A model generated the notes under the pieces. The model had not been told where the DNA came from. It made no database searches and saw only the letters and a list, made by a program, of their open reading frames with translations. This document shows positions 6,002-44,273 of a stretch of DNA of 64,000 nucleotides, piece by piece. Numbering within the stretch: the stretch's first letter is position 1; each line of letters opens with the position of its first letter. The stretch covers positions 1-64,000 of the forward strand of contig JANQFV010000017.1 in assembly GCA_028277645.1 (NCBI GenBank). Reading direction: 5' to 3'. Both the position numbers and the translations under genes were made by a program. This DNA comes from Phycisphaerae bacterium. GTDB lineage: Bacteria; Planctomycetota; Phycisphaerae; UBA1845; Fen-1342.

Positions 6002-6022
6002 ACGGAAAACGGTCCGCGGCTG

Positions 6023-7183: not shown

Positions 7184-7287
7184 CTCGCGGGACCTCCGTG
7201 AACTCATGCTCGGCTCGCTTCGCGGCTGGTATCAGTCGCCGCCAGCCGGGCGCACGCGGCCGGGTAGTATAACCCACCCCCGCCACG

Positions 7288-22077: not shown

Positions 22078-22581
22078 CTACCGTCGCGCGAAAGCGGAGC
22101 GCTTTCGCCGTTGCCGTCCGAACAGGTCCGGAAGAGCGATAATCAGCGTCGCGATCAGGCCGGCGCCGATGGCGCTGGCCAGCGACTGGCTGAGCACCTG
22201 AAACATCGTGAGCGCATGCTCCTGCAACCACACCTGGTGCAGCCGTACGATCAACTGCGCCGGCAGTGCCGCCATCGCGCCCAGCGTCCAGCGCACCCAC
22301 CAGACCTGCAGGTTCATCGACTCGCGCAGGTTGGTCAGCGCGATCATCGCCAGCCCTAGCGCGAACGCGTGCAGGCCGATGGGGCCCTGAGTTCCGATGT
22401 CGATCGCGAAACCTACCAGCCAGCCGGCCAACCGCGCGTCGGCGGCAGGTGCGGCCAGACCACAGATGATTGCCAGAGCCAGCAGCGGATCAATCCAGGC
22501 CGGAGCTTCAATGAGCGGCAGAAACGTGGTCTGCCCCACGAAGATCACTACGAGTGCCAGGCTGAACAATGGCCAGGACAT
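22078..22581 (-). CDS. MreD-like integral membrane protein
   Basis: 167 aa with five or six hydrophobic helices (e.g. LFSLALVVIFVGQTTFLPLI; PLLALAIICGLAAP; GLHAFALGLAMIALTNL; LASAIGAGLIATLIIALPDLF), and a basic C-terminal end. Size, helix pattern and the GWLVGFAIDIGTQGPIGLHAF segment (compare the FxxGLxxDxxxxxPLG region of MreD) suggest the rod-shape protein MreD. No mreB or mreC is near. Its ATG shares one base with the stop of the lipoprotein gene (TGATG), so it is the last gene of the secretion operon. It may serve that machine rather than cell shape; assignment is moderate. Confidence 0.6.
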   Translation of the reverse strand: MSWPLFSLALVVIFVGQTTFLPLIEAPAWIDPLLALAIICGLAAPAADARLAGWLVGFAIDIGTQGPIGLHAFALGLAMIALTNLRESMNLQVWWVRWTLGAMAALPAQLIVRLHQVWLQEHALTMFQVLSQSLASAIGAGLIATLIIALPDLFGRQRRKRSAFARR

Positions 22582-23198
22582 CAGCGCTTGTTCTCCCGTG
22601 GCGCTGCCTGCGTCGTCGGAGCCTGTTGCACCGTTGGGACATCCCAGGAATCGCGAATGCGCATGCGATGCGACATGGGCGTCCCGCGCGGACCGGTTAC
22701 GCGGAACCGGCTGCCGTGACGTGTTACTACGCCACCGTCGGCACGCGTGTAGCGATACGTTAGCTGCACTTCCTCGCCGATAAGCTCCAGATCTTCCGGC
22801 CAGCGCAGGACGAGTCCGTACGAATTCCCCATGACGGACTTGCTGACGATGCGGTAATCACGGGCGCGCGGCTCCGGGAAAGTCCAGGTGTGCAGCAGCT
22901 CGCGCTGAAATGTGCCGTCTCGCCGGGGGAGGAGGCGGCGCAATTCCACTTCAATTGTCCCCGGCACGAACTCGCCGCGACTCGTCGACGCCGAGACCAT
23001 GTACACCCGAGCACGCATACCGACCACGCGCCCTTCTTCATCAAACACCCACGGCACCGTCGGCGTGTACTGATTGATGGCGACAATGTCGTTCGCCACA
23101 CGCGGTGCGCAGCCGATGCTCCCACAGACCAATGCCGCCAGGCCGACGGCCAATAGCCCCAACGAGCGGCTCTGATTCACGACGGCTTCGGACACCAC
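22581..23198 (-). CDS. Lipoprotein encoded directly after the giant secretin
   Basis: 205 aa with a GTG start (two adjacent GTGs, GGAG upstream). A lipobox is visible: hydrophobic LLAVGLAALVCGSIG then Cys (SIG-C), predicting a lipid-anchored mature protein of ~175 aa starting CAPRVANDIV. The body is beta-rich (EFVPGTIEVELRRLLP; YGLVLRWPEDLELIGEEVQL; RHGSRFRVTGPRGTP), with a disordered Pro/Gln/Thr tail. I recognise no family. It starts 12 bases after the secretin stop and overlaps the MreD-like gene, so all three are probably co-translated. Position and lipobox make it a candidate secretin pilotin or accessory lipoprotein, by inference. Confidence 0.7.
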   Translation of the reverse strand: MVSEAVVNQSRSLGLLAVGLAALVCGSIGCAPRVANDIVAINQYTPTVPWVFDEEGRVVGMRARVYMVSASTSRGEFVPGTIEVELRRLLPRRDGTFQRELLHTWTFPEPRARDYRIVSKSVMGNSYGLVLRWPEDLELIGEEVQLTYRYTRADGGVVTRHGSRFRVTGPRGTPMSHRMRIRDSWDVPTVQQAPTTQAAPRENKR

Positions 23199-23210: not shown

Positions 23211-26200
23211 TCAGGACACGCGCCGTCGCGCCGCGGTCAGCGGAACGTCGTACGAGTTTGGATCCAGGGCATCGTGCGCTTCGTCCTGCGGGACCAGCGT
23301 TGGCCGCACCGGGCCGTACATCTCTTCGGTCGGCTCCAGCTCCTCCATCATCGCCGGCGACTGCTCTGCGGGCACCGGACGCGCTTCATAGACTTCCGCC
23401 GTAGTGTCGTACTCGTCGACAGTCAGGTCGTCCAGATGAGCCTGCAGACCCTGCATCAACGGGTTGTCGATCATCTCTTCGGGCACGAGCGACAGGTTCT
23501 CGCGCTCCGCCAGCGACAACGCGCGGTAGTCCTCGACGGTACGGATGACGTGCGGCGTCAGCACCAGCAGGAGTTCCTTCCGATCGGTGGAATCACTCTG
23601 CGATCGGAACAACGCGCCCAGACCTGGAATGTCACCGAGAATCGGAACCTTGGTTTCGCGATTCTGTGTGCGTGAGGTAATCAAACCACCGAGCACGACG
23701 GTCTCGTTATCGCGCACCATGATGTTGGTCTCGGCCTCACGCGTGAAGAAGATCGGCGAGCTGACACCCGGCGCAACGTCGATCGTCGAATCGGTCAGGT
23801 CGGACACTTCCTGCTTGATCTCCATGCTGACGAAGCCGTCCGGATTGATCCGCGGCGTGACCTCCAGCACGATGCCAACGTTTCGACGGGCAACACTGGT
23901 GCTGATCTGGCCGGTGGACGACGTCTGCGTGCCGGTCACGTACGGCACGTCGTCGGCCACGTCGATCTTCGCCGGCTTGTTGTCCATCGCCACAATCTGC
24001 GGCCGACTGAGCACTTTCAGGCTGCCCTCGCTCTGAAGCGTGCGGAACAGGAAATTGAAGTCGGCGCCGGTGATCGTGAACGTGAAGCCGCCCAGACCAC
24101 TGCCGGCTGCACCGAGATCCGTTCCGCCGACGTAGTCGAATGTCGTCGTGTCGGTCGGCCCGGCCTTGGTGTATTGCAAATCCTGGAACGCGAACTCCAC
24201 GCCCAGATCGAGGTCGTTTTCCAGCGTGACCTCGACAATAAGCACCTGGATCATCACCTGCGGCGGCGGCTGATCGAGCTCGTCCACTACCCGCATCACC
24301 GTGTTCTTGAAACGCGGATCAACGCCGACAATGACGCGATTCGCGTCCTCGTTGGCGATCGCGGTCACCGACCGTTCTTTCAGCACAGCCTGCGAGATCT
24401 CCTCGCCGATATCTTCCAGTCGCTGCTGTTCGGCCTCGCTGAACTCCCGGATCGAATCTGCCAGAGCTATGGCCGGCAGGTTCCGCGGCGAGTACACGAT
24501 CGTGTCAATATCCTCGATTGGAATCGTATCGAGCTCGAGCACGATCTCCTCGACGAGATCGAGATATCCGCTCGTGCCCGCCGCGATCACCGAGTTCGTG
24601 CGCACGTCAACAGTGAATGCGATCTCTTCACGTCCGCCCTGCCCCTCGACGGCAAGCATCCGCTCGGATTCGTTTCCGCCGGTGCCCGCAACGGTGTCGC
24701 GCTCGAATAGATCACGGAGCGTCTCGGCCATGTTCTCCGCGTCGGCGTTGACCAGGCGGAACACCTTGATCTTGGCAGCATCCGGCGGCACATCAATCGT
24801 GCTCACCAGCGACTCCATCAGCCGCATGCTCTCCGTGGGAGCCGTGACAAACAGCGAGTTCGTGCGCACATCCGCCAGCACGCGAATGTCTTTGCGCATC
24901 GCACGCAGCGTCTCGACGTCGTCCTGCCAGATTAACATCACCTGCGCCGCGACGTCGTCGCTCGAGCCACCACCGCCGCCGCCCGTACCACCAACGGTGC
25001 CGCTCTCGCCCTCGAGAATGCGGGTGAGCAACTCGCCGGCAACCTCCGCATCGGCCTGTTCCAGCTTGAAGATCCGCATGACCGCGTGGCCGGCGGCCTC
25101 GACGCCGTCAAGCTGGCGGACGAAGTCCTCGATGCTGCTCACGATCGGCGGCGGGCCGAAAGCGATTACCGAGTTGGTCGTCGGGTCATGCGTGACTGTG
25201 AGATCGACCTGACCCTGCTGGCCGTCGAACTGGAAGATTTCCTCGGCTTGCTGGGCAACCTCTTCCGCGTCGCCGCGCTGCAGCGGAATGATGCGGGTCA
25301 TGCGACCGACCTCGGTCGGCCGGTCCATGATCTCGACCCAACGCTTCAGCATGCGCATGTCTTCACGCGCCGCCGCAATCAGCAGTGTGTCAGAGACCGG
25401 GTCGGCCGACACCACCACCTCAGTGCCGCTGAGCGCCGAGTCACTCTGCTTAAGTGCCTTCTCGACCATATCCTCGAGAATGGCCGCGATATTCGCCGCC
25501 GAGTTGAGCTTGACCTTGATGGCCTCGAACACGACGGTTCCGTCGAACTCCTGGTCCAGCTCGGTGATCAGAGTTTCGGCTTCGTCCAGATAGTCGCGCG
25601 TGCCGGTCATCAGCAGCGAGTTGCTGCGGACGTCCGCCAGGACCGTCAACGTGTCGTTCAGATCCTCGTTCGTGTCCTGCTCGGCCTCTTCCTTGGCCTG
25701 GAACATCTCTTCGAGCAGGCCCTGGATCTTGACGGCGTCGGCATAGCGCAACGGCCGGTAGCGCATGTCCACCACGCTGTACTTCTTCTCCGGCACGTCC
25801 AGCTCGGCCACGAGATCCTCGATCATCTCGTAGACCTCCGGCTGGGCGAAGACGACCAGTGAGTTCGAGCGCTCCTCGGGCTGAATCACAGCGCTGTCGC
25901 GGGCCTCGTTGTCGTTGGCGCCCAGCGCTTCGGCCCGCGCGTCGAGCAACTCTTCAAGTTTCTCGGCGAACTGGCCGGACTGGAGCACCTTCAACGGTCC
26001 GAGGACGTATGCCCGCAGCCCCAGCTCCATCGTGGGCCGGTCCAGCTCGCTGATGAGACCGCCCGCGAGGACGACCGCATCGACGCGGCCGATCACCACG
26101 ACCGTGTTGCTGCGCACGTCGTGCTGCACGACCACCGGATACGGCAGACCGGCGGCCGCCATACCGGGCGGCACCGGCGGCATGCGTCCCTTCTCGAGCC

Positions 26201-29200
26201 CACCGCTGTCGCCCTCACTCGGGCGCAGCAGAGCGCTCTTGTCCTCGAACACCTGCTCGAGCAGGTCGGCGACTTCCTCGGCGTTCGCGTATTCCAGCCG
26301 GAACGCCTTCACGTCAATGTCCGCACCTTCTGGCAGCGTGTCGAACACATCAACAATTGCCGTCAACGCCTCATTGTTGTCCTTGGTCGAGAAGATGATC
26401 AGTGAATTGGTGCCCTCTTCCGGGATGATCTTGATCGACCGCTCCAGATCGAGCGCCGGCAACTCGCGGCCGTCGGCCGTGCGCAGACGCAGGACCTTCA
26501 CGAACGGCTCACCGGCCTTGTCGCCCGACGCCGAGCGGGCCGCCTCCTGCTGCTCCTCGATCATCGTGGTCAGCGTCTCGGCGACGTCACTCGCGTTCGC
26601 GTTCTGAAGCGGGATGATGATCACGTCGGCGGTGACGAAGTTGGGCATATCCTCCGCTTCTTCCGCCGTCAGCTTCACGTCGAGCGCCTCGATCAGTCCG
26701 GAGACCTCCTCGATGTCCTTGGGCGTGCCGACGATCATGATGCTGTTGTTGCGATCGACGGCACTGATCGAGACCTGCGCCTCCTTGGGCACCTCGCGCT
26801 GCGTGTTGAGCTGCTCGATCGTGGGGATCAATATCGCGACCGCCTCCGACGCGCGCATGTTCTGCAGCACGACGGACTTCGCATCGGCGCCCTCGCCGGT
26901 CTTGTCGACGTCGAGGACGTCGATCAGATCGGCGATGTCGTTCATCATGCGCTCGGACGCCGCCACGATCAGCGAGTTGCTGCGGGCCTCGGCGTTGACG
27001 CTGAAGCGCTCCTGCGGCCCCGGCGAACTGGTCATGATCTCGATGCGCGAACTGATCGCCTCTTCGAGGATCGGGGCCAGCACGGTGGCCTTGGCCGATT
27101 CGAGCTGGAACACCTCGATGATGCCGGGCGATGCCGTCTGATCCATCATGCCCAGAATCTGCTCGATGAACTCTACGTCGGTCTCATCACCGGTGATGAC
27201 GATGCGCTGCGCGTCGATCGCCTTGACTGAGACGTCGCCCCGCAACGAGCCGCTGACGCCCGTCAGCGTTTGCATCACGTCTGTCTTCGGCGGCAACAGC
27301 GCCGGCGTACGCGCGGGCGGCTGCGACCTCGGTCGCGCCGGACCGGAAGGCTCGTCGGATGCAGGTGCGGTCTGTGCCGACGCCAACAGCTCGTCCTCCA
27401 GCGCCTCACGGGCCGCACGACGCGATGGTGCCGGCGGATCATCCTCATGCTGCGCACCGGAAAGCAGCGCCATGATCACCGGCGATAACGTCCCCGTTCC
27501 GACATACGGACGGGCCCACGCCGCCGTCCGCGGATGGAGCGGTGCGCAAGGCGCGGGTGCAATCGACGGCGTCCAAAGCTCGCCGCGCCGACCCGATCTG
27601 CGGTTACGTGAGCCGGAGGTTGATCCCCGCGGCCGCCCGGAGCGGATGTTGCTCGAGCGGCTGGTCTGTTGCGTCTGGACGTCGTTGATGATCTGCTCGG
27701 CCTGCTCGGCGGAGAGATTCTTGAACTCGATCACGCGCGTCACGGCCGAGTACGGTCGGACCTCAGCGAGTTGCTGAATAATTCCCTCGGCCAGGCCGAA
27801 CAGCGCCTGATCACCGCCGAGAATAATGGTGTTGGTAAATGCGTCAGCACCGACGACGAGCGTCCGCGGCTGGCGGCCGTGCTGCTCGGACATGCTGTTT
27901 TCGCTGTCGTTGACGATCCGCTCGACCTCGGCCGCGAGAGCGCTCGCATCCTGGCCCAGCGGGATCGCGATCACCTTGGTGCGGTTGATCGTGAGGTTCG
28001 GATCGTCGAACCGCTCGACAAGCTCGCGCACCTCATCGACCTGCCGATTCGTGCCGCGGACGATCAGTGTCTTGCCGTTGTCATTGGGCACGATTTGCGG
28101 ACCGGTGTCCGTGCCCGGCGCACTCCCGCCGCGCCGTCCGCCGCGCTGACCGCCGCCGGCCTGCTGGACGTTGGTGTCCAGGAACTGGTAGATGAAGCTG
28201 ACCACCTGTGACGGTGGAACATTCTCGACCGCGACTTCGGCGATCGTGTAGCGATCGCTGATGCTGTTCTCCAGTTCGGCGATCACCATCGTCTCGACCT
28301 TGTCGATGTCCTCCGACCGGCCGAACACCATGACCGAGTTCGTCGCCGTCTCCGGGACGGCGGAGACGTTCAGCTCACGCATCGTTCCGCCCGCGCCGGG
28401 CATGCCGCCGCGTCCGCCGCGCCGCCCTCCGGGCGCCGCCCCCCCACCGGCGAAGCTGTTGATCGCTTCAGCAACCGTCTCGGCCTGGGCCTGCTCGAGC
28501 GTGAAGATCCGGAATTGCTTGCGCTGATCCTCCGGCGTTTCGACTTCGACCGCCGCCAGAATTTGTGAGATGAACAGGAAAGTCTCTTCCGAGCCGACGA
28601 CCATGACGCTGTTGGTGCGCGGGTCGGCAACCGCGGTAAACGCGTCGAAGTCGGTCTCCGTGCCGGTGCGCTGCGCGACCTGCATGTATTCCATCATCGC
28701 GCTCTTCACCAACTCGACGACGGTCTCGGCGTCAGCGTAGCGCAGCTCGAAACGCTTCAGTTGCAGTTGCGTGTCCGGCTTGTCGAGCGTGGCGACGATG
28801 CCCTCGATTTGCGAGAACAGTTCGTCCGGCGCTCGTACGAGCAGCTTCTTGGCATCCTTGTCGCCCATGATCATGATCCGGCCGGATTGCAGCACACCAC
28901 CGCCGCTGGGCTGGCCACGTCGGCCGCGGGATTGCCTGCCGCCAGTGCTGCCCGCGCTGCCGAACATCTGCATCAGCGTTTCGGCGAGCTTCTCCGGATC
29001 GGCGAACACCACGTCGATCTCGCGAATGTCCTGTCGAGCGCCGTCATCCAGCCGCTCGATGTCGGCAAAGATCAGGTCGCGTTTGTCCGGCGGGCCCCAG
29101 ACGAGGATCGTGTTGGTCGCGGCCTCGGCGATGATGCGTACGTCATTGACCGTCGTCGGCGCACCGCCACCACGTCGGCCGCCGCCACCTCCACTGGTCA

Positions 29201-32200
29201 CGTAGATCGGCTCGAGCGCGCTCGCGATGGCCGTCGCGTCGCCGAACTGGCAGACGTACATCTCGACCTCGGCCACCGAGCCCTCGATGTCGAGCAGGTT
29301 GATCTGGGCCTCGACCTTGTCGCGGTCCTTGCCCTCGGCGGTGAAGATGATCGTGTTGCTGCGCGGATCGCCGGAGATCATCACCGGCCCCAGCGCCCCC
29401 GGCGAGCCACCACCGCGTCCGCCACGACCGCCACCGGCACCCACCGCACTGCTGAACAACTCCTGGAGCAACGGCAGCACGTCGTCGACACGCGCGTTGA
29501 CCAGCGGATAGTGATACACGCCCACCACGTTGCGGCCTTCGAGCCCTTCGAGCTCTTCGATGATGCCGCTGATCACGCTCATCACCTCGGGCGGCGACGA
29601 GACCATCAGTGAGTTCGTGACGGCGTTGGGTACGATCTCGACGCGCTCGATCTTCGCGCCGCCTTCGACGCCCGGCACCGAGACCATCTGCTGCTGGAGC
29701 ATCTCGATGAGCTGCTGCTGCGGTGCGCTGCGACCGCGCCCCCGCGCGCCGCGCTGCGTCGGCGTGCGGCCGCGGCGTTGCTGCAACTGTGAGATCCCCA
29801 GAATGTCCTTGATGTTCTGCGCAGTTTCCGCGGCGTCCAGGTTCTTGAGCTGGAAGACCTTCAGGTCGACCTTGCCCGGCGGGATATCCAGCTCGCGCAG
29901 GAGCTGGTGAATCTCCGGCAGGTGCGACTCGTCACACTTCACGATCAGGTAGTTGTGCCCTGGATCGGTCGCGATGCGCAGTTGCTGCTGCTGGCCCTGC
30001 TGGCCCCGCTGTTGCCGCCCGCCGATCATGCCTTGCAACTGGTCGAACATCGAGCCGCGGCGCTGGTCCTCGCCATCGCGGCCCTGTTGTCGATTGCGCT
30101 GTTGCTGCTGAGGAATGATGATCTGCCGCTGCCGCACGTCGAACATGATGCTGAGAATCTCGGCGGCGGCATTCACATCACCGTACTTGAAGCGGAAGAT
30201 GCGAATGACCTCGCCGAGCGAGCGTTCATCGCGGAACAGCTCGATCGCGTCGACGATATCGTCCACATCATCACGCTCGCCCTTGACGACGAGCGTGCCG
30301 TCATCCTGGAGCACGATGTATGTCGGCTCCTTCTCCACCGGCGAACGGACGTTCTGGCCGGGCGCGTCAGCGTCAGCTTCGATATCCGAGTAGTCCTCGC
30401 GCGCGGGAACCTCGGCAAAGATCGGCACAGGTCGCGCCGGCTGCGTCGTCGCCTGCTGCTCATCCTCGCCAGTCACATCGGGTGACAGCAGGAACAGCGC
30501 CGGTCGGAACGGCGAGCGTGCGTCTTCGTCCGCGCTGGCGAGTCGCTGCGTGCCCAGCAGATCATCCGTGATCTCGTCGAGCAGATCACCCTGTTCGCCG
30601 CCGCGCTGAAATGGCGCCACGTGCCATACGCCGCGTTTTGATCCGCGCGGCGCTTCGCCGCGCGACTGCGTCGGCGCCTGCTCCTTCGGCGCGGCACCCT
30701 CGGGCGACTCGTCGTCGTCCCAGACGTCGACAATCAGTCGCTCCATCCGCGGCTTCTCGGTGGGAATCTGGAAGACCAGGTTGTCCTGGCCATCGCTGCG
30801 TGCCCTGATGTACTCCGTCACCGCCGCCATGTCCAAGCCGCGGACGCTGAGCTGCCGCACGACCGCGTCAGGCTTGTAGCGCCGCTCGAACTGGCGGATG
30901 AGCTGTTCGACCTGGGGAAATTCGTTCGCCCGACACTTGACGATCAGGTACTCGTCGAACCAGTCGGCCTCGATGCTCGGGCCGCCGCGATCCTCGTCGG
31001 GCAACATGGCGCGCACGTCCCAGGCGATGTCGCTGGCACTGCCGCGGCTGATATCGACGAAGTAGATCGTCCGCCCGCCGAGCAGGAAGTTCTCGTCATC
31101 GGGCGCTACGTCCAGCTCGCCGATGAACGTCTCCACCTGGCGCATCTTGCGTTTGTTCGCGGTCACCAGCAGGCGATTGGCATAATCGTCCGCGGTGATG
31201 GTGACGGAGTCCTGCGGATTGCGCGACGGCGGGAAGATCCCGCTGAGGATGTCGTACGCCTCCAGCGAGGAAATGTTCTCCAGCCGGAAGACCTGGAACT
31301 CGGGCACGCGCGTGCTGTTCGCCTCCAGCTCGGTCAGCCAGCCCTCGACCTCCGCCACGTCCTTCGGCAGCCCCGCCAGCAGGATCGAGTTGCTGCCCGC
31401 GTCGGCGGTGATACGCACCTGGCTGGCGTCGGCACCGCGTCGGCCGCCCTGCCCGGTTTGGAGAATCTGCTGGAGCGAATTTGCCAGCTCACGCGCATCG
31501 CCGTTGTCCAGCGGGATGATGTGGACGATCCGCCCGGTGTCTACCTCCTCATCGACCATCTTGACCAGCTCGGCCGCGAGATCCTGGTAGTCTTCCGGAG
31601 CGTAGACGAACACGCGGTTGGTGATCGGCTCGGCGAACACAGACGTCTGGACGGTTGTGCGGCGGTTGCTGCCTTCGCGCTCGATTACCTTGGCCTTCAA
31701 CATTGCGTCGAGGTTGCGGGAGATCTGCTCAGCCTGAACGTTCACCAGCCGATACGGACGCACGGCGCTGGCGCCCGGTGCATTGTCCTCCAATTCCGCG
31801 ATGATCTTGTCGATCATCACGAACGACTCGGGGGGGGCCATCACGACCAGGGTATTGGTCGTCGGCTCGGCGAAGGCACCCGGCTTGAGCTGGCCCGGAC
31901 GCGCGTTGCGGCCCAGGTCCCGCAGCAGGCCCTGCACGGCCAGCGTCACCTGGCTCGCGTTGAGCACCTTCAGCTCGTACGTCTTGAGCTGCACACCGCT
32001 GGGGTCGACCTGGTCGACCTCCGCGATCAGCGCCTCGATCTCGTCCATCTTGTTCCGGGGCGCAGAGACCACCAGCACGCCATTGGTCACGGTCGCCTTG
32101 GCCTGTTGCGCCTCGCTCTGTCCACGGCGACCGCGGCTGCCGAACCACTGGTTGATCAGGTTGGCGACCTCGCTGGCATTCGCGTGGACGAGGTCCACGA

Positions 32201-35200
32201 CCTGCGGCTCCCGGCCGTGCAGCACGACGCGCTCATCCAGCCACAGCGCCTGCTTTTTGATCTCTTCGAAATCCTCGTCCGAAGCCGTAACGAGCAACGA
32301 ATTCGTAATCGCCTCGGGTTGGATGCGGACGATGATCTGCGAGATGTCCTCGCGGCGGCGCTGGTTCTGACGCTGCTCGAACATCGGGCGTAGCGTTTGC
32401 GCCACCGTGTTTGCATCGGCATGCGCCAGCTCGATCGAGCGCACCTGGCCTTCGTAATCCTCGGCCGGCACGTCCAATTCGGCGATGATCTGCTCGAGGT
32501 CGGGGACGATCTTCTCCGGCACGTAGCACACCAGCCGGTTCGTTCGCGCGTCGGCCACAATCGACAGGTTCTGCGTCGCGCGGCTGCTGCGGCCCGTGCG
32601 GACCAGCTTATTGGCGAGCATGTCCTGGATCATGCGGGCGTAGCGGCCGGCGTCGAGGTGTTCGAGCTTGACGAACTTCGTGATGGTCGTTTCCTTCTCG
32701 ACCATCGTCTTGAAGCGCTCCATCATCGCTTCGATTTCTTCGAACTGATCCGTGCGGGCCGTGACGATGAGTGTGTCCGCGGCCGGATAGGCAGTAATCG
32801 CGACGCGTCGCTCGCGGGCCTGCTGCTGCGAGTTGATCGCGTTGGTCACCTGGCGGGCGAGATCGTGGATGCCCTGCCCGATGCCGGCCAGCTCGTAGGT
32901 GCGAACCTCGACCTTATCAACGCCGACCTTGTCCAGACGCTCGATCAATTCCAGAATGCCCGGCAACTTGTCTTCCGGCGCCTGCACGGCGATGCTGCGG
33001 CCGGCGACGACGTTGAAGCTGTATTCCTTACCGATCTTGCTGCGCCGTCCCCAGCCCCCGCCGCCATACTGCTGGTTCAGGATGTTCGCGATTTCCCATG
33101 GGCTGGCGTTGAGGACTTCGACAATCTCAAGCGTGCCACGTTTCACCAGCGCCTGCTCGTCGAGATCTTTCGCCCACTTCTCGATTTCGCTGTAGTCCTC
33201 ATCCGTGCCACCCACGATCAGCGAGTTGGTCAGCGGCTCGGCGCTGATCTGCAGCGTGCGAGCACGAATCTTCTCGTTGAAGATCTGCCGCAGGACGTTG
33301 TTGACCGTGTTTGCGTCCGCGTTCGCCAGCGGGATCGTACGAAGCTGGTTCTGCGCCGTCGGCGGCTGGTCCAGCCGTTCGATCAGCTCGGCCGCCATCG
33401 GGATGACGAACTTGGGCGCACTGACGATGACTTCGTTCCGCCGCGTATCGACGCTGATGCTGATGCGATCGGACACCGCCCGGCCGCGCGTACGGCCGAT
33501 CTGACTGGTGAGCAGGTTGCGCACAAGGCCGGCGATATAGTTCGCATCGGCTTCCTGGACCGCGAAGAACTCGCGAATCGGCTCGACGTCCTGCGCCTCG
33601 GACTCGAACGTCGAGATGATCTCATTGATCCGCGCGTACATGTCCTTGGGCGCGCTAATGATCAACGTCTCGGTCGTCGTGTCATAAGCGAACGTCGCCC
33701 GCAGCCCGTCCGGCCGCCGCGGCTCGTTGCGGAAGACCTGGTTCAGGTTGTTGGCCAGCGCCCGCACATCCAGCCCGGCAAGTTTGCGGGCTTCGGTATC
33801 CATCGGCGTGGACGGCGGCTGGTCGGCCTCGACGTCGTACTGCTCGAGCAGGGTCAGGCCGAACTTGACGGCCACTTCCGGACCGTTGATCACCACGCGA
33901 TTGGTTCGCTGGTCGGCCGTTACGCGGATGGCCTGCGCCGCTCGCCTGCCAAGCTGCTGCTGCATGTACGTCAGTAGCTGTTCGCGCAGCCAGGTAGCCG
34001 CGTCTCGAGCCTGCGCGTGCGTCATCTGCCGGAACTCGACCTGGGGCGCCTGCCCGCGGGCCGCCTCGACATACTCGTCGATCAGCTCCTGTGCCTGATC
34101 CAGCACGTCCTTCTGACACGTCAGCAGAATCGTCTCCGAAGTCGCATCTGGATCGAACCGGGCCACGACATTCCGTCGCGCGCGAAACGCGTTGTTCAGT
34201 TTCGACGCGATCTGGCCGACGTCCGCGCCTTCAAGCTTGATCGTCTTGATGACGATCTCGCTGCCCTTCGGATCGTCGAGCTGCTGGATGAACGCCTCGA
34301 TTTCCGGCAGCTTGTCCTTCGGCGCTTCGACGATCACCTGCGGACCGGACACGATCGCCTTGACCTGCGTGCCGATCGGCTGCCGCGAGCGTCCCCGCAC
34401 GCCGCCGTAGACCTGCTGAATCGCAGACGCGACGTTGCGGGCCTCGGCGTGCCGTGGCGTGAAGAAGCGCCGCTCGGGCTCCTGCGCCCCGACGCGCTGG
34501 TCCATGTCCATCGCGTAGTCTTTGATCTTCTCCAGGTCCGACTTGTTGGCCTGCACGATCAGCGAGTTCGTAATCGGGTCGGACTGAATCAACGGGCCTA
34601 TGCCCGCCGTCACGCCGCGCCCGCGCCGCACGTTCCGCCCCATGCCGAACATCTGCTGGATCTGCTGGGCCACCTGCGTGGCGTCGGCGTATGCGAGCGG
34701 CAGAATCTCGGTCTGATCCTCGCTGCCCTCGACATCCATGGTCTCGATCAAGCCCGCGATCTCATCGATCGCCGGCTGCACGCCGTAGACCCAGATCTGA
34801 TCGCCGTCGGGCTGAATCGCGACCTGCGAGCGCCCGAGCACCGGATGCTGGTACGCGCGATAGAACTGCCCCAACGTGGCGGCGATCGTCTCGGCGTTGC
34901 CCTTCTCGATCGCGAACACTTCCAGCACCGGCGAGCTGGTCAGCGCCCGGCTGTCCCAGAGTTGGATGGTCTCGTTGATCTTCTCCCAGTCGTCATCCGT
35001 GCAATACACAATCAGGATACCCGCGTCGTCGAGCGGGATGACCTGGTAGTCCGTAGTCTGCGTCACGCTCACCGGCTGGCGGACGCCGCGGCGACCGCGA
35101 ATGCGACTGGACAGCGCGCGCCCCGACGTCCGGGTGCCGCCGGAGTCAAGCAGATTCTGGATCATCACCGCAACATCGCTCGGTCGCAGATTCACGAGTT

Positions 35201-37178
35201 CAACGACGTGTTTGTTCTGTTCCGAACCGACGACGTCGAGGCGTTTGATCAGGTCCTCGATCTTCGTCATCTCGTCGCGCTCGGCCATGATGTAGAAGAC
35301 GTTGTTGGCGGAGTCGGGCACGATCGTCGGCGTCTTGCCGGTCCGGCCGGCGGCCAGCGTCATCGACGTGGTCAGCTCCGTGACCATCGCCGCGATGTCG
35401 GACACCTTTACGTGCTCGACCGCGACCGTCTGGAACGAGTCAGTCTGCGGCACGTCGAGCGTCTGCAGCAGATCATCGACGCGTTTGTGCCCCTCGTCGT
35501 TGGCATAGACGATCAGCACGTTCAGCCGCGGGTCCGCGACCAGACGTACCGTCTTCTTCGCCCGCTCGAAGATGCCCTCGGCCAGAATGTCTTCCGGCGC
35601 GACGCTGCCGGCCTGGGCCGCCGTCGGTGTCCGCGTGGGTTGGCGCTGGTTGCGCCCACGCTGATTGCGCTGCGCGCGGGCTCGGGCTTGGGCCTGCTGG
35701 AGCGCACGAATGCGCTGCCAGTTCGGCGTACGCGAGGACTCGCCCTGCTCCTGCTGGAAGATCTGGTTCAGCAGGTTGGCAATCTCGGCCGCGTCGGAAT
35801 GCCGCACTTCGTGTACCTTGGTGACGAAATCACCCAGCGGCGGCTTCTGATCGAACTTTTCGATCAGCGCCTCGATCTCCTTCAGCTTGTCCTCGGTCGC
35901 CTTGACGATGATCTGGTTGGTCCGGTCGTCCGCGACCATCTGAACGGTGCTGCCCGATTGCTGAGCCGGGACGCGCCGCGGCACCATACGACCGGTCCGC
36001 TGATCGCGCTCCATGACAACCTGCGCCCCGCCGCCGCTGGGCAGGTCCATGAACCCGCGCACCAGCCGCTCGATCTCGCGCGCGTTGGTCTCGATCTTGA
36101 AGAAGCGCAGCTTGCCCGGATCGCCCGGCGTGATATCGACCAGATCCTTCAATGTCAGGAACTCGCGCACGTCGCGGGCCAGCGCCGTGATCTTGATCTG
36201 GTTGCTCTCGTCGAGCGTGGACACGCGCGTGTAGTCCGGCAGCGCGTCGAGGAACATGTCGACCAGCGCCTGCGCCTTCACGTCCGGCACGCGGTAATAA
36301 ACCGTGACGTAGTCCATTTCGCGCGGATCGGCTTCGTTGAACGCCGCCACGGTCGGGTACGTCTTGTCAATCGGCACCCACTGCGGCATTTCGGCCAGCG
36401 GGATCACTCGAACGTGGTGCTCCTGCTCGACGAAGCGATACCCCTGCTCGTGCATGATCAGGTTCAGCTCGTCAATCGCCTCGTCCTGGGTGAACTTGCG
36501 ATCTGAGACGTAATACAGTTCGCCGCCGATGATCAGCTCTTCGCCCATCATGGGCTTGCCAATCCGGTCGACGAACGTCATCACGACGTCTTCCCAAGGC
36601 ATACCGTTGAAGTTGAACCACTCGCTCGGCTCATCCGGATCGATCGGTCGTCGGACGAGCGGTTCGTTGGATTCACCGTCGCCATCTCTGCTATCGCCGG
36701 TTTCGCCGCGCTGCGCTCGAGCACTCTCGCGAATCTCCGCCGGTGAACGGGTCTTCTTCTGCGGAGCCAACGACGCCGGCGGCCCGACGAAATCCGCGGG
36801 TGGATAGACGACCTTCTCACCAGGGGTATCACCGCGCGCCTGGGCCACCTGCTGCGCTTCGCGCTGCATCTCCGCGAGCGTTTCCTGGCGCGACTCGCGC
36901 ACTGTCGAGGCCCGCGGCTGCGGGCGCGTTCGCGGCGTCCGCGGCGGAGCGGTTTCGCCCCGTTCCTCGCGCTCGCGCTCCTCTTTCTCCATCTTGTCGC
37001 GCAGCTCGAGCAGCCGCTGGAGGGCTTCCTCTTCCTCCTGGTTGCGCGGCTGCGGGCGGGTCTGATCGGACTCAGCCTGAGGATCAACTTGCGCGATCGC
37101 CGGTGAAGCCGGCGCCCACGCGAAGCAGATGAAGAGTACGACCGCCAAGAGCTCGCGCTGGGGTATCCGCAGCGTCAT
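23211..37178 (-). CDS. Giant secretin (GspD/PilQ-like) with about 45 N-domain repeats
   Basis: 4655 aa from the ATG at 37178 (AGGAGAGG 7 bases upstream, followed by a signal peptide MTLRIPQRELLAVVLF...AIA-QV); the 59 codons further upstream are not used. Order: signal 1-30; charged Glu/Arg/Pro region to ~185; N0-like domain ~186-255 (EDVVMTFVDRIGKPM...QGYRFVEQEHHVRV); array of secretin_N/NolW-like repeats ~290-4300; pore domain ~4303-4546 with VMIQVLIVEVTLENDLDLG, LKVLSRPQIVAMDNKPAKI, VGIVLEVTPRINPDGFVSM, NETVVLGGLITSR and LGALFRSQSDSTDRKELLL; tail to 4655. Two disordered linkers (~2150-2285, ~3173-3298) split the array. Ordinary GspD has ~650 aa and three such repeats. It forms the outer-membrane channel of the adjacent type II secretion/type IV pilus machine. 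No stop or frameshift interrupts 14 kb, which implies selection. Confidence 0.93.
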   Translation of the reverse strand: MTLRIPQRELLAVVLFICFAWAPASPAIAQVDPQAESDQTRPQPRNQEEEEALQRLLELRDKMEKEEREREERGETAPPRTPRTRPQPRASTVRESRQETLAEMQREAQQVAQARGDTPGEKVVYPPADFVGPPASLAPQKKTRSPAEIRESARAQRGETGDSRDGDGESNEPLVRRPIDPDEPSEWFNFNGMPWEDVVMTFVDRIGKPMMGEELIIGGELYYVSDRKFTQDEAIDELNLIMHEQGYRFVEQEHHVRVIPLAEMPQWVPIDKTYPTVAAFNEADPREMDYVTVYYRVPDVKAQALVDMFLDALPDYTRVSTLDESNQIKITALARDVREFLTLKDLVDITPGDPGKLRFFKIETNAREIERLVRGFMDLPSGGGAQVVMERDQRTGRMVPRRVPAQQSGSTVQMVADDRTNQIIVKATEDKLKEIEALIEKFDQKPPLGDFVTKVHEVRHSDAAEIANLLNQIFQQEQGESSRTPNWQRIRALQQAQARARAQRNQRGRNQRQPTRTPTAAQAGSVAPEDILAEGIFERAKKTVRLVADPRLNVLIVYANDEGHKRVDDLLQTLDVPQTDSFQTVAVEHVKVSDIAAMVTELTTSMTLAAGRTGKTPTIVPDSANNVFYIMAERDEMTKIEDLIKRLDVVGSEQNKHVVELVNLRPSDVAVMIQNLLDSGGTRTSGRALSSRIRGRRGVRQPVSVTQTTDYQVIPLDDAGILIVYCTDDDWEKINETIQLWDSRALTSSPVLEVFAIEKGNAETIAATLGQFYRAYQHPVLGRSQVAIQPDGDQIWVYGVQPAIDEIAGLIETMDVEGSEDQTEILPLAYADATQVAQQIQQMFGMGRNVRRGRGVTAGIGPLIQSDPITNSLIVQANKSDLEKIKDYAMDMDQRVGAQEPERRFFTPRHAEARNVASAIQQVYGGVRGRSRQPIGTQVKAIVSGPQVIVEAPKDKLPEIEAFIQQLDDPKGSEIVIKTIKLEGADVGQIASKLNNAFRARRNVVARFDPDATSETILLTCQKDVLDQAQELIDEYVEAARGQAPQVEFRQMTHAQARDAATWLREQLLTYMQQQLGRRAAQAIRVTADQRTNRVVINGPEVAVKFGLTLLEQYDVEADQPPSTPMDTEARKLAGLDVRALANNLNQVFRNEPRRPDGLRATFAYDTTTETLIISAPKDMYARINEIISTFESEAQDVEPIREFFAVQEADANYIAGLVRNLLTSQIGRTRGRAVSDRISISVDTRRNEVIVSAPKFVIPMAAELIERLDQPPTAQNQLRTIPLANADANTVNNVLRQIFNEKIRARTLQISAEPLTNSLIVGGTDEDYSEIEKWAKDLDEQALVKRGTLEIVEVLNASPWEIANILNQQYGGGGWGRRSKIGKEYSFNVVAGRSIAVQAPEDKLPGILELIERLDKVGVDKVEVRTYELAGIGQGIHDLARQVTNAINSQQQARERRVAITAYPAADTLIVTARTDQFEEIEAMMERFKTMVEKETTITKFVKLEHLDAGRYARMIQDMLANKLVRTGRSSRATQNLSIVADARTNRLVCYVPEKIVPDLEQIIAELDVPAEDYEGQVRSIELAHADANTVAQTLRPMFEQRQNQRRREDISQIIVRIQPEAITNSLLVTASDEDFEEIKKQALWLDERVVLHGREPQVVDLVHANASEVANLINQWFGSRGRRGQSEAQQAKATVTNGVLVVSAPRNKMDEIEALIAEVDQVDPSGVQLKTYELKVLNASQVTLAVQGLLRDLGRNARPGQLKPGAFAEPTTNTLVVMAPPESFVMIDKIIAELEDNAPGASAVRPYRLVNVQAEQISRNLDAMLKAKVIEREGSNRRTTVQTSVFAEPITNRVFVYAPEDYQDLAAELVKMVDEEVDTGRIVHIIPLDNGDARELANSLQQILQTGQGGRRGADASQVRITADAGSNSILLAGLPKDVAEVEGWLTELEANSTRVPEFQVFRLENISSLEAYDILSGIFPPSRNPQDSVTITADDYANRLLVTANKRKMRQVETFIGELDVAPDDENFLLGGRTIYFVDISRGSASDIAWDVRAMLPDEDRGGPSIEADWFDEYLIVKCRANEFPQVEQLIRQFERRYKPDAVVRQLSVRGLDMAAVTEYIRARSDGQDNLVFQIPTEKPRMERLIVDVWDDDESPEGAAPKEQAPTQSRGEAPRGSKRGVWHVAPFQRGGEQGDLLDEITDDLLGTQRLASADEDARSPFRPALFLLSPDVTGEDEQQATTQPARPVPIFAEVPAREDYSDIEADADAPGQNVRSPVEKEPTYIVLQDDGTLVVKGERDDVDDIVDAIELFRDERSLGEVIRIFRFKYGDVNAAAEILSIMFDVRQRQIIIPQQQQRNRQQGRDGEDQRRGSMFDQLQGMIGGRQQRGQQGQQQQLRIATDPGHNYLIVKCDESHLPEIHQLLRELDIPPGKVDLKVFQLKNLDAAETAQNIKDILGISQLQQRRGRTPTQRGARGRGRSAPQQQLIEMLQQQMVSVPGVEGGAKIERVEIVPNAVTNSLMVSSPPEVMSVISGIIEELEGLEGRNVVGVYHYPLVNARVDDVLPLLQELFSSAVGAGGGRGGRGGGSPGALGPVMISGDPRSNTIIFTAEGKDRDKVEAQINLLDIEGSVAEVEMYVCQFGDATAIASALEPIYVTSGGGGGRRGGGAPTTVNDVRIIAEAATNTILVWGPPDKRDLIFADIERLDDGARQDIREIDVVFADPEKLAETLMQMFGSAGSTGGRQSRGRRGQPSGGGVLQSGRIMIMGDKDAKKLLVRAPDELFSQIEGIVATLDKPDTQLQLKRFELRYADAETVVELVKSAMMEYMQVAQRTGTETDFDAFTAVADPRTNSVMVVGSEETFLFISQILAAVEVETPEDQRKQFRIFTLEQAQAETVAEAINSFAGGGAAPGGRRGGRGGMPGAGGTMRELNVSAVPETATNSVMVFGRSEDIDKVETMVIAELENSISDRYTIAEVAVENVPPSQVVSFIYQFLDTNVQQAGGGQRGGRRGGSAPGTDTGPQIVPNDNGKTLIVRGTNRQVDEVRELVERFDDPNLTINRTKVIAIPLGQDASALAAEVERIVNDSENSMSEQHGRQPRTLVVGADAFTNTIILGGDQALFGLAEGIIQQLAEVRPYSAVTRVIEFKNLSAEQAEQIINDVQTQQTSRSSNIRSGRPRGSTSGSRNRRSGRRGELWTPSIAPAPCAPLHPRTAAWARPYVGTGTLSPVIMALLSGAQHEDDPPAPSRRAAREALEDELLASAQTAPASDEPSGPARPRSQPPARTPALLPPKTDVMQTLTGVSGSLRGDVSVKAIDAQRIVITGDETDVEFIEQILGMMDQTASPGIIEVFQLESAKATVLAPILEEAISSRIEIMTSSPGPQERFSVNAEARSNSLIVAASERMMNDIADLIDVLDVDKTGEGADAKSVVLQNMRASEAVAILIPTIEQLNTQREVPKEAQVSISAVDRNNSIMIVGTPKDIEEVSGLIEALDVKLTAEEAEDMPNFVTADVIIIPLQNANASDVAETLTTMIEEQQEAARSASGDKAGEPFVKVLRLRTADGRELPALDLERSIKIIPEEGTNSLIIFSTKDNNEALTAIVDVFDTLPEGADIDVKAFRLEYANAEEVADLLEQVFEDKSALLRPSEGDSGGLEKGRMPPVPPGMAAAGLPYPVVVQHDVRSNTVVVIGRVDAVVLAGGLISELDRPTMELGLRAYVLGPLKVLQSGQFAEKLEELLDARAEALGANDNEARDSAVIQPEERSNSLVVFAQPEVYEMIEDLVAELDVPEKKYSVVDMRYRPLRYADAVKIQGLLEEMFQAKEEAEQDTNEDLNDTLTVLADVRSNSLLMTGTRDYLDEAETLITELDQEFDGTVVFEAIKVKLNSAANIAAILEDMVEKALKQSDSALSGTEVVVSADPVSDTLLIAAAREDMRMLKRWVEIMDRPTEVGRMTRIIPLQRGDAEEVAQQAEEIFQFDGQQGQVDLTVTHDPTTNSVIAFGPPPIVSSIEDFVRQLDGVEAAGHAVMRIFKLEQADAEVAGELLTRILEGESGTVGGTGGGGGGSSDDVAAQVMLIWQDDVETLRAMRKDIRVLADVRTNSLFVTAPTESMRLMESLVSTIDVPPDAAKIKVFRLVNADAENMAETLRDLFERDTVAGTGGNESERMLAVEGQGGREEIAFTVDVRTNSVIAAGTSGYLDLVEEIVLELDTIPIEDIDTIVYSPRNLPAIALADSIREFSEAEQQRLEDIGEEISQAVLKERSVTAIANEDANRVIVGVDPRFKNTVMRVVDELDQPPPQVMIQVLIVEVTLENDLDLGVEFAFQDLQYTKAGPTDTTTFDYVGGTDLGAAGSGLGGFTFTITGADFNFLFRTLQSEGSLKVLSRPQIVAMDNKPAKIDVADDVPYVTGTQTSSTGQISTSVARRNVGIVLEVTPRINPDGFVSMEIKQEVSDLTDSTIDVAPGVSSPIFFTREAETNIMVRDNETVVLGGLITSRTQNRETKVPILGDIPGLGALFRSQSDSTDRKELLLVLTPHVIRTVEDYRALSLAERENLSLVPEEMIDNPLMQGLQAHLDDLTVDEYDTTAEVYEARPVPAEQSPAMMEELEPTEEMYGPVRPTLVPQDEAHDALDPNSYDVPLTAARRRVS
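24270..36310 (-). repeat. Coding array of ~45 divergent secretin N-domain repeats
   Basis: Each unit of about 80-95 residues ends in the same pattern: a hydrophobic strand after a polar turn (types DxRTNSLIV, DPRSNTIIF, EPITNRVFV), then A/G-x-x-x-x, a helix with IxxLIxxLD, and the next strand starting V(F/Y)xLxNAxAxxVAxxL. I counted 45 such ends by eye (a few are degenerate). Repeats differ strongly in sequence, so this is old protein-level duplication, not a recent DNA tandem repeat. Several units carry Gly/Arg- or Gln-rich loops between strands, e.g. around 28,390-28,450, 29,390-29,450 and 29,990-30,110. Confidence 0.85.
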
Positions 37179-37466
37179 GCTGGCACCTCTCCTGGGTGTG
37201 GCACGCGCGTCGATCTTCCCCAACTGCGCGTGCAACCGTAGATCAAACCGGCCTGGGTTCGCCGGCTCGGACTTAACGAAGACTTCACTGCGATCACCGC
37301 ACCGGGCGCTCCGCGCCGGGCCGGTCGTCGCGTCATGACGGCGGCAGTGGCCCAACGCCTGATGCGTGCGTTAGTTATACCCGCAAACCCCCCACAGGTG
37401 GCACTCGCGCCGCCTTGGAAATCGATTTGCCGAACCCCCCTAAGCCACGTGCCGCCATGCACTTAA
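37179..37466. other. 288-base leader between the PilO-like gene and the secretin
   Basis: This is the longest gap in the minus-strand secretion operon. It holds the secretin ribosome-binding site at its left end and otherwise no gene. On the minus strand a TATAAC with TTGCGG just upstream (around 37,370-37,385) resembles a -10 but has no -35 at proper spacing. A separate promoter for the 14-kb secretin would be reasonable, yet I cannot support one firmly. Confidence 0.35.
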
Positions 37467-38621
37467 TCACCCTCGTTCGGCCGCTCCCTCGACCGGGCCG
37501 TCCCCCTCGGTCACAAACGCCTTTTTGATCGCTTCCACCACCTCCGGGTGCAGATCCGGATCAAGCCGCTCGCGGTCAGCGAAGGTCATGCCCAAGTTGT
37601 AGTAATAGTCCACTTTCCGACCGTCCTCGGTCGTCCGTACGACCATGCCCCGCGGGAGTATCAGCAGCACAAAGCCGTCGTCGACTGCGTCGTCGTGATG
37701 ATATTTCTCTGGCTCGCTGATGCGGTCGCGCTCGTTCAGCACGAACACGCGCGGCTCGCCATTAATCGAGTCGGTCGCGACCAGTTTCATGAACTGCGCG
37801 TCTGGCCGCGGATTCTTCACTTCGGCAACCGTTTCCCTGGGCTGTGTCTTGACTGCCGGCTTGGTCGTCGGCTCTCGCTGAGCGGGGGCACGCGCTACCG
37901 TACGCGGCTGGAACGGCACGAACAGATTGTCATCGAAGATGCGATTGTACGCCGCCAGCTCGTCCGGCAAGCGCCCTTGCTCCTCACGCAGGACCTCTTC
38001 CGCCACCGGGTGATCCAGCCCCTTGATCGGCGGTAGCACCAGCGTCAGCGCCGAGAAGCTCAGCCGCAGCTCCGGACCGTTGGGGCCATAGTTGTTGCCG
38101 TCGCGCGACTTGCTCCGGCGGGAGGACTTCTTGGGATTGTTAACGTTCGACACCACTGTCTGGTCGGCGCTGATCGTGAGCTTGTCGATGCGGGCCAGGT
38201 ACTCGGCGCGATAGAAGTCGCACAGGAAGCCGATGATGTCCTTCAACGTGCCCGTCGCCCCGACAGTTAGCGGCACGCCGATGAAGCCGTTCTTGTACTT
38301 GGTAAACGTCCCGGTGCTGATCTTCGGTTCGGACAGCCCGTGTACCTCGAGCAGTCCGTGCATGTCCTCGCGAAAACGGCGCTGCGCGTCCTGCGGATCG
38401 GTCGCCAGCGTGCGCCCGGTCATGCCGACCCAGTCGTCCTCGACATTGCGCAGCCGGTGCAGCTCCTTCTCGAACTTATTGCCGTCGGCGCGCTGCTCCC
38501 GAATCTCCTTCTTGATGTTCGAGAACGGTTGCAGCACCAGCCAGTCGACCGCCATCACCGCCAAGTAGCCGCAGACGGCGCCGCCCACGCAGATGCCCAG
38601 GATTCTCTCACGTCGCGTCAT
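37467..38621 (-). CDS. PilO/GspM-like inner-membrane assembly protein
   Basis: 384 aa; GGAG lies 7 bases before the ATG. One membrane helix at ~8-30 (ILGICVGGAVCGYLAVMAVDWLVL, shortened) is followed by a coiled-coil region (FSNIKKEIREQRADGNKFEKEL) and an alpha/beta domain (~100-150, LTVGATGTLKDIIGFLCDFYRA) that fits the ferredoxin-like fold of PilO and GspM. These proteins link the cytoplasmic ATPase platform to the secretin in the periplasm. Residues ~200-384 are an extra region with a Thr/Pro/Arg-rich linker and a C-terminal domain (DGFVLLILPRGMVV; VDYYYNLGMTFADRER). It may stand in for the missing GspC or PilP. It lies 22 bases after the PilM-PilN gene and 288 bases before the secretin. 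Confidence 0.72.
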   Translation of the reverse strand: MTRRERILGICVGGAVCGYLAVMAVDWLVLQPFSNIKKEIREQRADGNKFEKELHRLRNVEDDWVGMTGRTLATDPQDAQRRFREDMHGLLEVHGLSEPKISTGTFTKYKNGFIGVPLTVGATGTLKDIIGFLCDFYRAEYLARIDKLTISADQTVVSNVNNPKKSSRRSKSRDGNNYGPNGPELRLSFSALTLVLPPIKGLDHPVAEEVLREEQGRLPDELAAYNRIFDDNLFVPFQPRTVARAPAQREPTTKPAVKTQPRETVAEVKNPRPDAQFMKLVATDSINGEPRVFVLNERDRISEPEKYHHDDAVDDGFVLLILPRGMVVRTTEDGRKVDYYYNLGMTFADRERLDPDLHPEVVEAIKKAFVTEGDGPVEGAAERG

Positions 38622-38643: not shown

Positions 38644-40236
38644 TCATGGTCGCTTCAGTTTGCCTTTGCGCTTCTTCTCGCGATCGCCGGCACCTTCACG
38701 AAACTTCTTCAGGTTCGTCAGCGCGATGCGCACGTCGGTATTTCCCTTGAACTTCTGACCTTCGGCGATCTCCCGCCAGGTCGACTGCGCCGCGTCGTAC
38801 GGGTGCTCACCGGCCAGATCGAGCTCGGTGACCTTCTCCACGAACTCGGTCGGCACCTGCCAGTCGGTCACGAACAGATCGCGCAATGTGATCCCCGGAT
38901 TCCGCGAGACCGTCTCCATGTCGATCTCACGCACGACCATCTTCTTGCCGGGCTCGATCGCGAGCGCGGTGACCGTGAGCAACTCGGCCGGCCAGACGGC
39001 TTCGACCGCCCACTCCTGAGCTTCCTCAATCGTGTTGAAGACCTTGTATTTTTCTTTCAGCTCGTCCCAGCGCTTGTTGTTAATCATCTGCAGGCGCTCA
39101 CGTTCGGCTGCCAGCCCGCGGTATTGCCAGGTCAAGCCAACGATGACCGCCAGCACAACGATCGCCGCCGCCATCCCGCCCAGCCGTACGCGCTTCTGCA
39201 TCGTCTCGCGCGCCGAGACGGGCCGCTTGGGATTGAGGAAGTCGAGCTCGAGCAGCCCTTCGCGACTCAATCCCCACGCCAGCCCCAGCGCCGCGGAAAA
39301 CGATCGCAGCTTCGGCGCGTCGACGGGATCGACACCCAGGGCCGTCGTCGGGTCGAACATCTCGACCGGGTAGCCGAGTCGCCGGTGCAGTGCATCGGCC
39401 AGGTGCGATTCGATACCCGTTCCGCCGGCCACGAGCACCATATCGATCGTGCCCTCGGGCTCGGTGACGCGGTAGGCCTGCAACGTGCGCATCACTTCGA
39501 CGACGAGCTCTTCGGCGGCGGCCTCGATCGCCTCATCCGACGCATCGAGATCGGAGATGTCCGCCAGCGTTATCGTGCGCGAGTCCTCGGGGGCTCCGCC
39601 CTCGCCCCCCGGCAGTGGAACGTTGACATTCGCCGAGCGGGCAAAGGCCAGTGTGTCGTCGTGAATGACATCGATCTCGGTCGCGCCTGGCCCAACATCA
39701 ATGAACAGCAGACGGCGCCCAGTCACTTCGTGGACGCGCTGCACGCTCACCAGATTCGCGTATGGCCGCAGTCCGATGCGCGACGGCGCGAGCCCCGCCG
39801 CCTCGCACGTGGCGCGAATGTTGTCGAGCGTCTCGCGCGTCACCGCGGCCAACAGTACTTCAGTAGCCTGCCCGCTCTCGTTGCGCTCCATGACGACGTA
39901 GTCAATCGCCGCCGAGTCGACCGAGAACGGCAATTCCTTCATGGCCTGGAAGCGCACCGCCGCGGCGACCTCGTCCGTCGGCGTCGGCGGTAGCGTGAGC
40001 CGATGGATCACGGCCTTTTCGCGCGGCACGTCCACCAACGCTCGCTTATGGTGCAGCCGATGCCGCCGCATCATCTGCCGGATGTACTCACCCATGGCCT
40101 GCGGATCGTCAGCATCGACCGTGTTCGGCAGGCGATGCGAGTGCGCGTCCTCGAGGACGGTCTTACCTCCGCCCACGCGCGCGACGACCAGTCGCAGCGA
40201 ACGTTTGTCCCAGTCGAGACACAGAACTTTCGCCAT
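38644..40236 (-). CDS. PilM-PilN fusion (GspL-like) assembly protein
   Basis: 530 aa; AGGAAGG upstream of the ATG. Residues ~1-310 are an actin-like ATPase fold of the PilM type: CLDWDKRSLRLVVARVG, VPREKAVIHRLTLPPTP, FQAMKELPFSVDSAAIDY, the phosphate-binding LFIDVGPGATEIDVI, and MVLVAGGTGIESHLADAL. A short NPKRPVS linker leads to a membrane helix at ~350-370 (AAAIVVLAVIVGLTW), a coiled coil, and a PilN/GspL periplasmic domain. PilM and PilN are normally separate proteins; in GspL the two halves are fused as here. It would sit on the inner membrane and contact the ATPase on one side and the PilO-like protein on the other. The C-terminus is a Lys/Arg-rich tail. Confidence 0.8.
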   Translation of the reverse strand: MAKVLCLDWDKRSLRLVVARVGGGKTVLEDAHSHRLPNTVDADDPQAMGEYIRQMMRRHRLHHKRALVDVPREKAVIHRLTLPPTPTDEVAAAVRFQAMKELPFSVDSAAIDYVVMERNESGQATEVLLAAVTRETLDNIRATCEAAGLAPSRIGLRPYANLVSVQRVHEVTGRRLLFIDVGPGATEIDVIHDDTLAFARSANVNVPLPGGEGGAPEDSRTITLADISDLDASDEAIEAAAEELVVEVMRTLQAYRVTEPEGTIDMVLVAGGTGIESHLADALHRRLGYPVEMFDPTTALGVDPVDAPKLRSFSAALGLAWGLSREGLLELDFLNPKRPVSARETMQKRVRLGGMAAAIVVLAVIVGLTWQYRGLAAERERLQMINNKRWDELKEKYKVFNTIEEAQEWAVEAVWPAELLTVTALAIEPGKKMVVREIDMETVSRNPGITLRDLFVTDWQVPTEFVEKVTELDLAGEHPYDAAQSTWREIAEGQKFKGNTDVRIALTNLKKFREGAGDREKKRKGKLKRP

Positions 40237-44217: not shown

Positions 44218-44248
44218 GGTCCGTACTTCCGCCGCGACCGGTCGAATC

Positions 44249-44273
44249 AAAAACCGGCGGCTTGCGCCGCCGG
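44249..44273 (-). terminator. Intrinsic terminator between gspG and gspH
   Basis: On the minus strand an 8-bp perfect GC stem, CCGGCGGC-GCAA-GCCGCCGG, is followed at once by TTTTT. It lies 38 bases after the gspG stop and 31 bases before the gspH ATG. This is the classic rho-independent form. Partial termination here would let the major pseudopilin be made in excess over the minor ones. Confidence 0.85.

Follow-up and report, generated by a model that had tools for sequence, protein, structure and literature searches.

The window, by which we mean the whole 64,000-nucleotide stretch of Phycisphaerae DNA that was analysed, carries at 23211..37178 a giant gspD gene, recognized from the sequence, Pfam and a repeat HMM, whose product of 4,655 aa has a mass of 512 kDa and a pI of 4.7. 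An earlier note on this DNA had the coordinates right; the gene lies on the minus strand, as do all other features of the window named below. It runs from an ATG at 37178 to a stop ending at 23211 through 4,655 stop-free codons, whereas the plus strand of 23211..37178 gives a translation full of stops. The ribosome-binding site and signal peptide previously described are both present, with an RBS-like AGGAGAGG (37186..37193) standing 7 nt upstream of the ATG and residues 1-29 (37092..37178) reading by eye as a signal peptide that is likely cut at AIA/Q. The GC content by codon position is 0.675/0.414/0.84, and under a simple base-composition model the odds of so long an open frame at such composition are ~1e-56.

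Pfam marks out 39 stretches of Secretin_N on the protein and a single Secretin pore near the C-terminal end (PF00263, residues 4381-4546, 23541..24038, E = 5.9e-52), in agreement with the single normal pore of the earlier note. Solved GspD chains match this pore region with E-values down to 1.2e-46; among the PDB sequence hits all of the top ten belong to type II secretins, and the relatives of this region there are 15-chain GspD entries. The repeat HMM, which was built in this analysis and trained on the window and fetched relatives, detects 42 units; together with an N1-like domain ahead of them and two interrupted units, these give ~45 N-domains, the number of Secretin_N repeats that had been proposed. 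The N1-like domain is counted within a GspD-like N-terminus (N0, N1, and the first array unit; residues 189-446, 35841..36614), which matches TIGR02517 from model position 2 with an E-value of 7.8e-13, under the whole-protein cut-off. The Pfam N0 model gave no report on the giant at E<=1; PF21305 is found precomputed in several relatives. The HMM units fall into three runs, namely units 1-22 (residues 365-2098, 30885..36086; loops mostly basic), units 23-31 (residues 2327-3137, 27768..30200), and units 32-42 (residues 3356-4303, 24270..27113; loops acidic). Of the 41 gaps between units, 39 measure 8-21 aa and the remaining two are 218 and 228 aa long. When models were compared by structure, single array units matched the N-domains of stacked secretins. 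Behind the pore, 54 of the 56 loci of the order have a YGP/FGP motif in the C-terminal tail (window 23214-23540 and relatives), a motif that is found in none of 20 loci of other orders.

The giant gene follows a set of gsp genes, which comprises gspF (44819..46024; PF00482 1e-59, TIGR02120 2.7e-108, the latter under its cut-off), the major pseudopilin gene gspG (44312..44767; TIGR01710 9.6e-35, over cut-off), and genes for minor pseudopilins that are GspH-like (43501..44250; TIGR01708 5.7e-9), weakly GspI-like (42371..43564; NCBIfam XpsI 3.9e-6), weakly GspJ-like (41485..42639; profile matches), and GspK-like (40262..41488; PF21687 1e-15). These are followed by a GspL/PilM-like gene (38644..40236; PF11104 7.4e-27) and a gene that is GspM-like by position and has no family match (37467..38621; homologue in 27 of 31 genomes). 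Neither gspE nor gspC was found within the operon of the giant; in a locus of another order (L104), GspE, GspF, GspH, and GspK precede the giant. By its operon and sequence, the giant is the GspD of a type II secretion system. A PilM-like domain is common to the PilQ system and this operon, however, no AMIN domain is among the Pfam matches at E<=1 and the operon has T2SSG/J/K pseudopilins. Directly downstream of the giant lies the gene for a predicted lipoprotein of 205 aa (22581..23198; lipobox by eye), which is a candidate pilotin. All 31 genomes compared carry a homologue of it within ~0.5 kb of the pore match, on the contig and strand of that match (weakest E 7e-4). The next gene (window 22078-22581) is MreD-like, with a weak match below cut-off. 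Apart from the gsp operon, a GspE/PilB-like ATPase adjoins a PilT-family ATPase at window 4235-7207, and the source genome holds 13 T2SSE matches as well as a second, ordinary-sized secretin frame of 647 aa (G000:C31:25808-26053).

The array was previously described as three blocks separated by two disordered linkers, a description that does not hold, as each disordered stretch sits within one N-domain and breaks it between the first helix and the second strand. The first interrupted N-domain (~residues 2105-2320, 30219..30866) was recognized by eye and with the repeat HMM, and the second (residues 3145-3348, 27135..27746) by eye, with half-domain profiles, and in a model. The by-eye reading and the model of the second unit rule out linkers acting as spacers between blocks. 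In the AlphaFold model of residues 3060-3432, the interrupted unit runs strand-helix-strand-strand-helix like its neighbors and aligns as one N-domain with 6ve4_A (59 residues, 2.1 Å) and 8axk_0 (61 residues, 2.7 Å). The monomer models have low pTM values (0.38 and 0.35) and hence do not fix how the domains are placed relative to one another.

The second interrupted N-domain is also the site at which the gene is cut in four related families. The window's family (f1) and f7 have a single frame; f8, f4, f5, and f2 have a separate C-terminal gene. In the split families the upstream protein ends in half an N-domain, and the next protein begins with a signal-peptide-like start (noted in those that were read) and the other half. 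The second half-domain opens the C-terminal gene in 24 of 24 cases, a set that includes L065 and L079, with a score reached by 0/300 shuffles in 23 and by 1/300 in L081. The first half-domain tail is found in 20 of 22 upstream genes, where it is equalled by at most 2/300 shuffles; the tail of L082 is weak (13/300), and that of L080, at 2 residues, lies outside the reach of the half-domain test. As controls, the wrong half-profile never ranked high on the heads (best 29/300), and on the tails it reached 5/300 or fewer in 9 of 22, with a score below that of the right half in 8 of those 9. Judged by these sequences, the array in the four families is made as separate proteins meeting within one N-domain. 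The two half-domains are predicted by modeling to fold together, and if they do, the segments would be joined end to end. Two loci (L062 and L069) are additionally cut at the first junction and so have a third gene; half-domains are unsupported there (L062 tail 218/300 and head 9/300; L069 head 42/300). In a tree of the pore, f1, f7, f4, and f2 each form one clade on a weak backbone, and f8 is not one clade.

A signal-peptide-like hydrophobic stretch, seen in the sequence of the second loop of the window gene (residues 3223-3243, 27450..27512), ends in SGA/Q. In the fused frames of f7 the second loop retains the hydrophobic stretch and a small-x-small-Gln motif in all 16 loci that reach it (15 by a motif filter and L138 by separate reading; L150 stops short of the junction), and in f1 the stretch is degenerate, the window copy ending in SGAQ. 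Four chance-like matches to the motif occur in array units (two in L056, one each in L132 and L137). A separate translation start at the internal signal peptide was rejected as a general account, since 3 of 15 f7 matches at the second junction (L132, L139, and L140) show no ATG, GTG, or TTG among the preceding codons that were scanned; the other 12 have at least one candidate start codon ahead of it, start codons being the only signal scored. The first loop of f7 giants has a recurring PCVLPASLL-like motif (L055, L056, L057, L058, L132, L135, L136, L138, L139, and L140), followed in several by a cut-like end at GQ or AQ.

Within its family the array is kept unit by unit. When six family members were set against the window, each gave 34-40 reciprocal best units, all of them collinear, and whole units have been gained or lost, mostly among window units 8-17, such that the unit number ranges from 33 to 47. 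Between the window and two f7 and three other-order loci, 12-16 best pairs remain and these are partly out of order. The most alike pair of units in the giant is 44% identical and the median is 25%, which excludes a recent or assembly duplication. For the pair G024 and G028, omega is lowest over the pore (0.032), followed by the array (0.087), the linkers (0.123), and the N-terminus (0.162), and in this one pair tested the array is under purifying selection. The earlier view that the long frame is maintained is therefore upheld, both by this omega over the array and by relatives with giants of their own. The source genome is in 72 contigs, which could be taken as a sign that the giant is decaying or is an artefact of assembly or annotation; however, we give this reading next to no credence, as 29 of the 113 matched genomes in the order have frames of at least 4,000 aa, four of these being single-contig genomes, and giants are found in two further single-contig genomes outside it (G195 and G392). 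No units are near-identical, and the GC pattern is that of coding sequence. Assembly duplication and decay are ruled out by the relatives' giants, the divergent units, and omega.

As to how far these genes have spread, 113 of the order's 114 genomes, covering 85 of 85 genera, have the pore (E<=1e-25), and in those where no frame reaches 4,000 aa the gene is split or cut by contig ends. Across a sample of the class, 144 of 248 genomes match the pore at E<=1e-40, many with ordinary frames of 700-1,000 aa. Outside the order, frames of at least 3,000 aa occur in at least 33 genomes among the matches listed, and the 20 other-order loci taken in full each have a single frame with 31-61 units, and in 17 of these loci no inter-unit gap exceeds 120 aa. 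Outside the class, where at most 19 candidates were scored per genome, the largest frame among the matches listed is 2,701 aa. It belongs to a family (f37; G247 and others) with many secretin frames of ~1,240-1,440 aa, which is a moderate N-domain expansion elsewhere in the phylum. One further locus of G023 (L066:10776-16478, plus strand) has a near-complete RNA polymerase beta subunit fused in frame to the last three N-domains and the pore; this is possibly a misassembly, in a genome that is 67% complete and on one contig. Of 1,155 candidates scored in a protein search, 211 were relatives of at least 2,600 aa at E<=1e-20 (120 listed), and the named relatives come from Phycisphaerae and other planctomycete MAGs. 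Relatives of similar size, which the earlier note had proposed to seek, recur in the order and across families of the class. Its statement that no such machine had been described stands in so far as our search of open-licence papers found no description of a giant secretin; however, databases already contain many such proteins, some annotated as "type II secretion system protein D."

The loop between the first helix and the second strand varies in charge along the array. It carries a net positive charge in all 20 of the window units 1-20 and in seven of the nine units 23-31; among the 11 units 32-42, its net charge is negative in 10 and zero in one. The unit cores are never net positive. In 48 of 49 loci of the order, the loops before the second junction are on average more basic than the loops after it, with a permutation p<0.01 in 33 of the 49, and the mean loop charge is positive upstream in all 49 and negative downstream in 33. 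Among 20 loci of other orders, upstream loops are more basic in 15, with p<0.01 in 2, the upstream mean being positive in 16 and the downstream mean negative in 7. Downstream here means the last 11 units in f1 and the last 14 in f7 and other orders, and as the loci are related, these counts are not independent tests. The charges could be read as those of a conduit for the uptake or export of polyanions, with Arg-rich loops on the inner-membrane side and acidic loops on the outer side, passing DNA or sulfated polysaccharide and not folded proteins. We consider this very unlikely. The loops of GspD N3 face the lumen, and the lumen-facing position of the array loops is carried over from there; moreover, the operon is of the type II secretion kind with a GspG pseudopilin, and the charge step is weak in other orders. 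What speaks for a polyanion conduit is the basic-to-acidic step itself within the order and planctomycetes of another class that take dextran into the periplasm and have fibers at crater-like pits (PMC5394234).

We favor the reading that the giant is a type II GspD whose ~45 N-domains are stacked as rings, forming a tube of ~110-180 nm between the platform in the inner membrane and the pore in the outer one; both the stacking and the length are inferred, and we hold the whole to be probable. Going by its N0-like end and by the partners encoded in the operon, the giant would have its N-terminus at the inner membrane and, with the pore in the outer membrane, the array would lie between them. Each N-domain would add one ring of ~15 chains, as in GspD, such that 15 copies would amount to ~7.7 MDa, and 45 rings at an assumed 25-40 Å each would give the length stated. 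The pseudopilus would push proteins along the tube, and the length of the tube would change by whole domains, as the unit counts do within the family. Instead of a tube, the giant could be a tether, in which only the last few and the N-terminal N-domains form rings and the middle is a string of beads that ties the pore to the platform over a variable gap. The large loops in many units, two of them longer than 200 aa, could hinder close stacking and, together with the varying unit number and a model without fixed domain placement, lend this some support; however, the short and regular gaps between units, the match of single units to stacked secretin N-domains, and the conservation of the array unit by unit within the family lead us to think it unlikely.

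GspD usually has N0 and three further N-domains. The giant resembles GspD (5wq7, 6hcg, and 5zdh) in its pore, putative N0-like start, N-domain fold, gsp operon, and downstream lipoprotein candidate, and differs from it by ~45 N-domains, loops of more than 200 aa inside two of them, and a division over two or three genes in relatives. Known secretins have three to six N-domains; the N0-N3 set is typical of GspD and does not define it. A multi-N-domain secretin of Deinococcus, DR_0774 (8co1), matched by sequence and structure, is like the giant in kind, however, its chain has only 740 residues. A precedent for extra rings in a wide periplasm is the PilQ of Thermus thermophilus, which forms six stacked rings, 350 Å long, that according to the authors span most of the wide periplasm (PMC5745081), itself ~70 nm across (PMC4463427). 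That PilQ has 757 residues and serves a type IV pilus, whereas the giant would have ~45 rings and belongs to a type II operon. The enlarged planctomycete periplasm in print is from other classes (PMC5394234).

A more elaborate form of the stacked-ring reading can be offered tentatively, and we regard it as possible and not as probable. The giant may be a modular pipe of 30-60 stacked rings that spans the periplasm. Some families would assemble it from two or three polypeptides that half-domains clip together, and f7 from a polyprotein that signal peptidase cuts at the retained internal signal peptide; the basic loops of the inner side and the acidic loops of the outer side would give the bore an electrical polarity, and its length would be retuned by whole rings. 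The repeated cutting of the gene at one place inside a domain would be a natural case of domain complementation joining the parts of a machine. If the domains of the giant GspD stack, no known secretin channel would come near it in length, with six-ring PilQ at most a third as long, and it would illustrate how protein secretion copes with a very wide periplasm. It also raises the testable question of whether the number of N-domains in a secretin measures the distance between the membranes.
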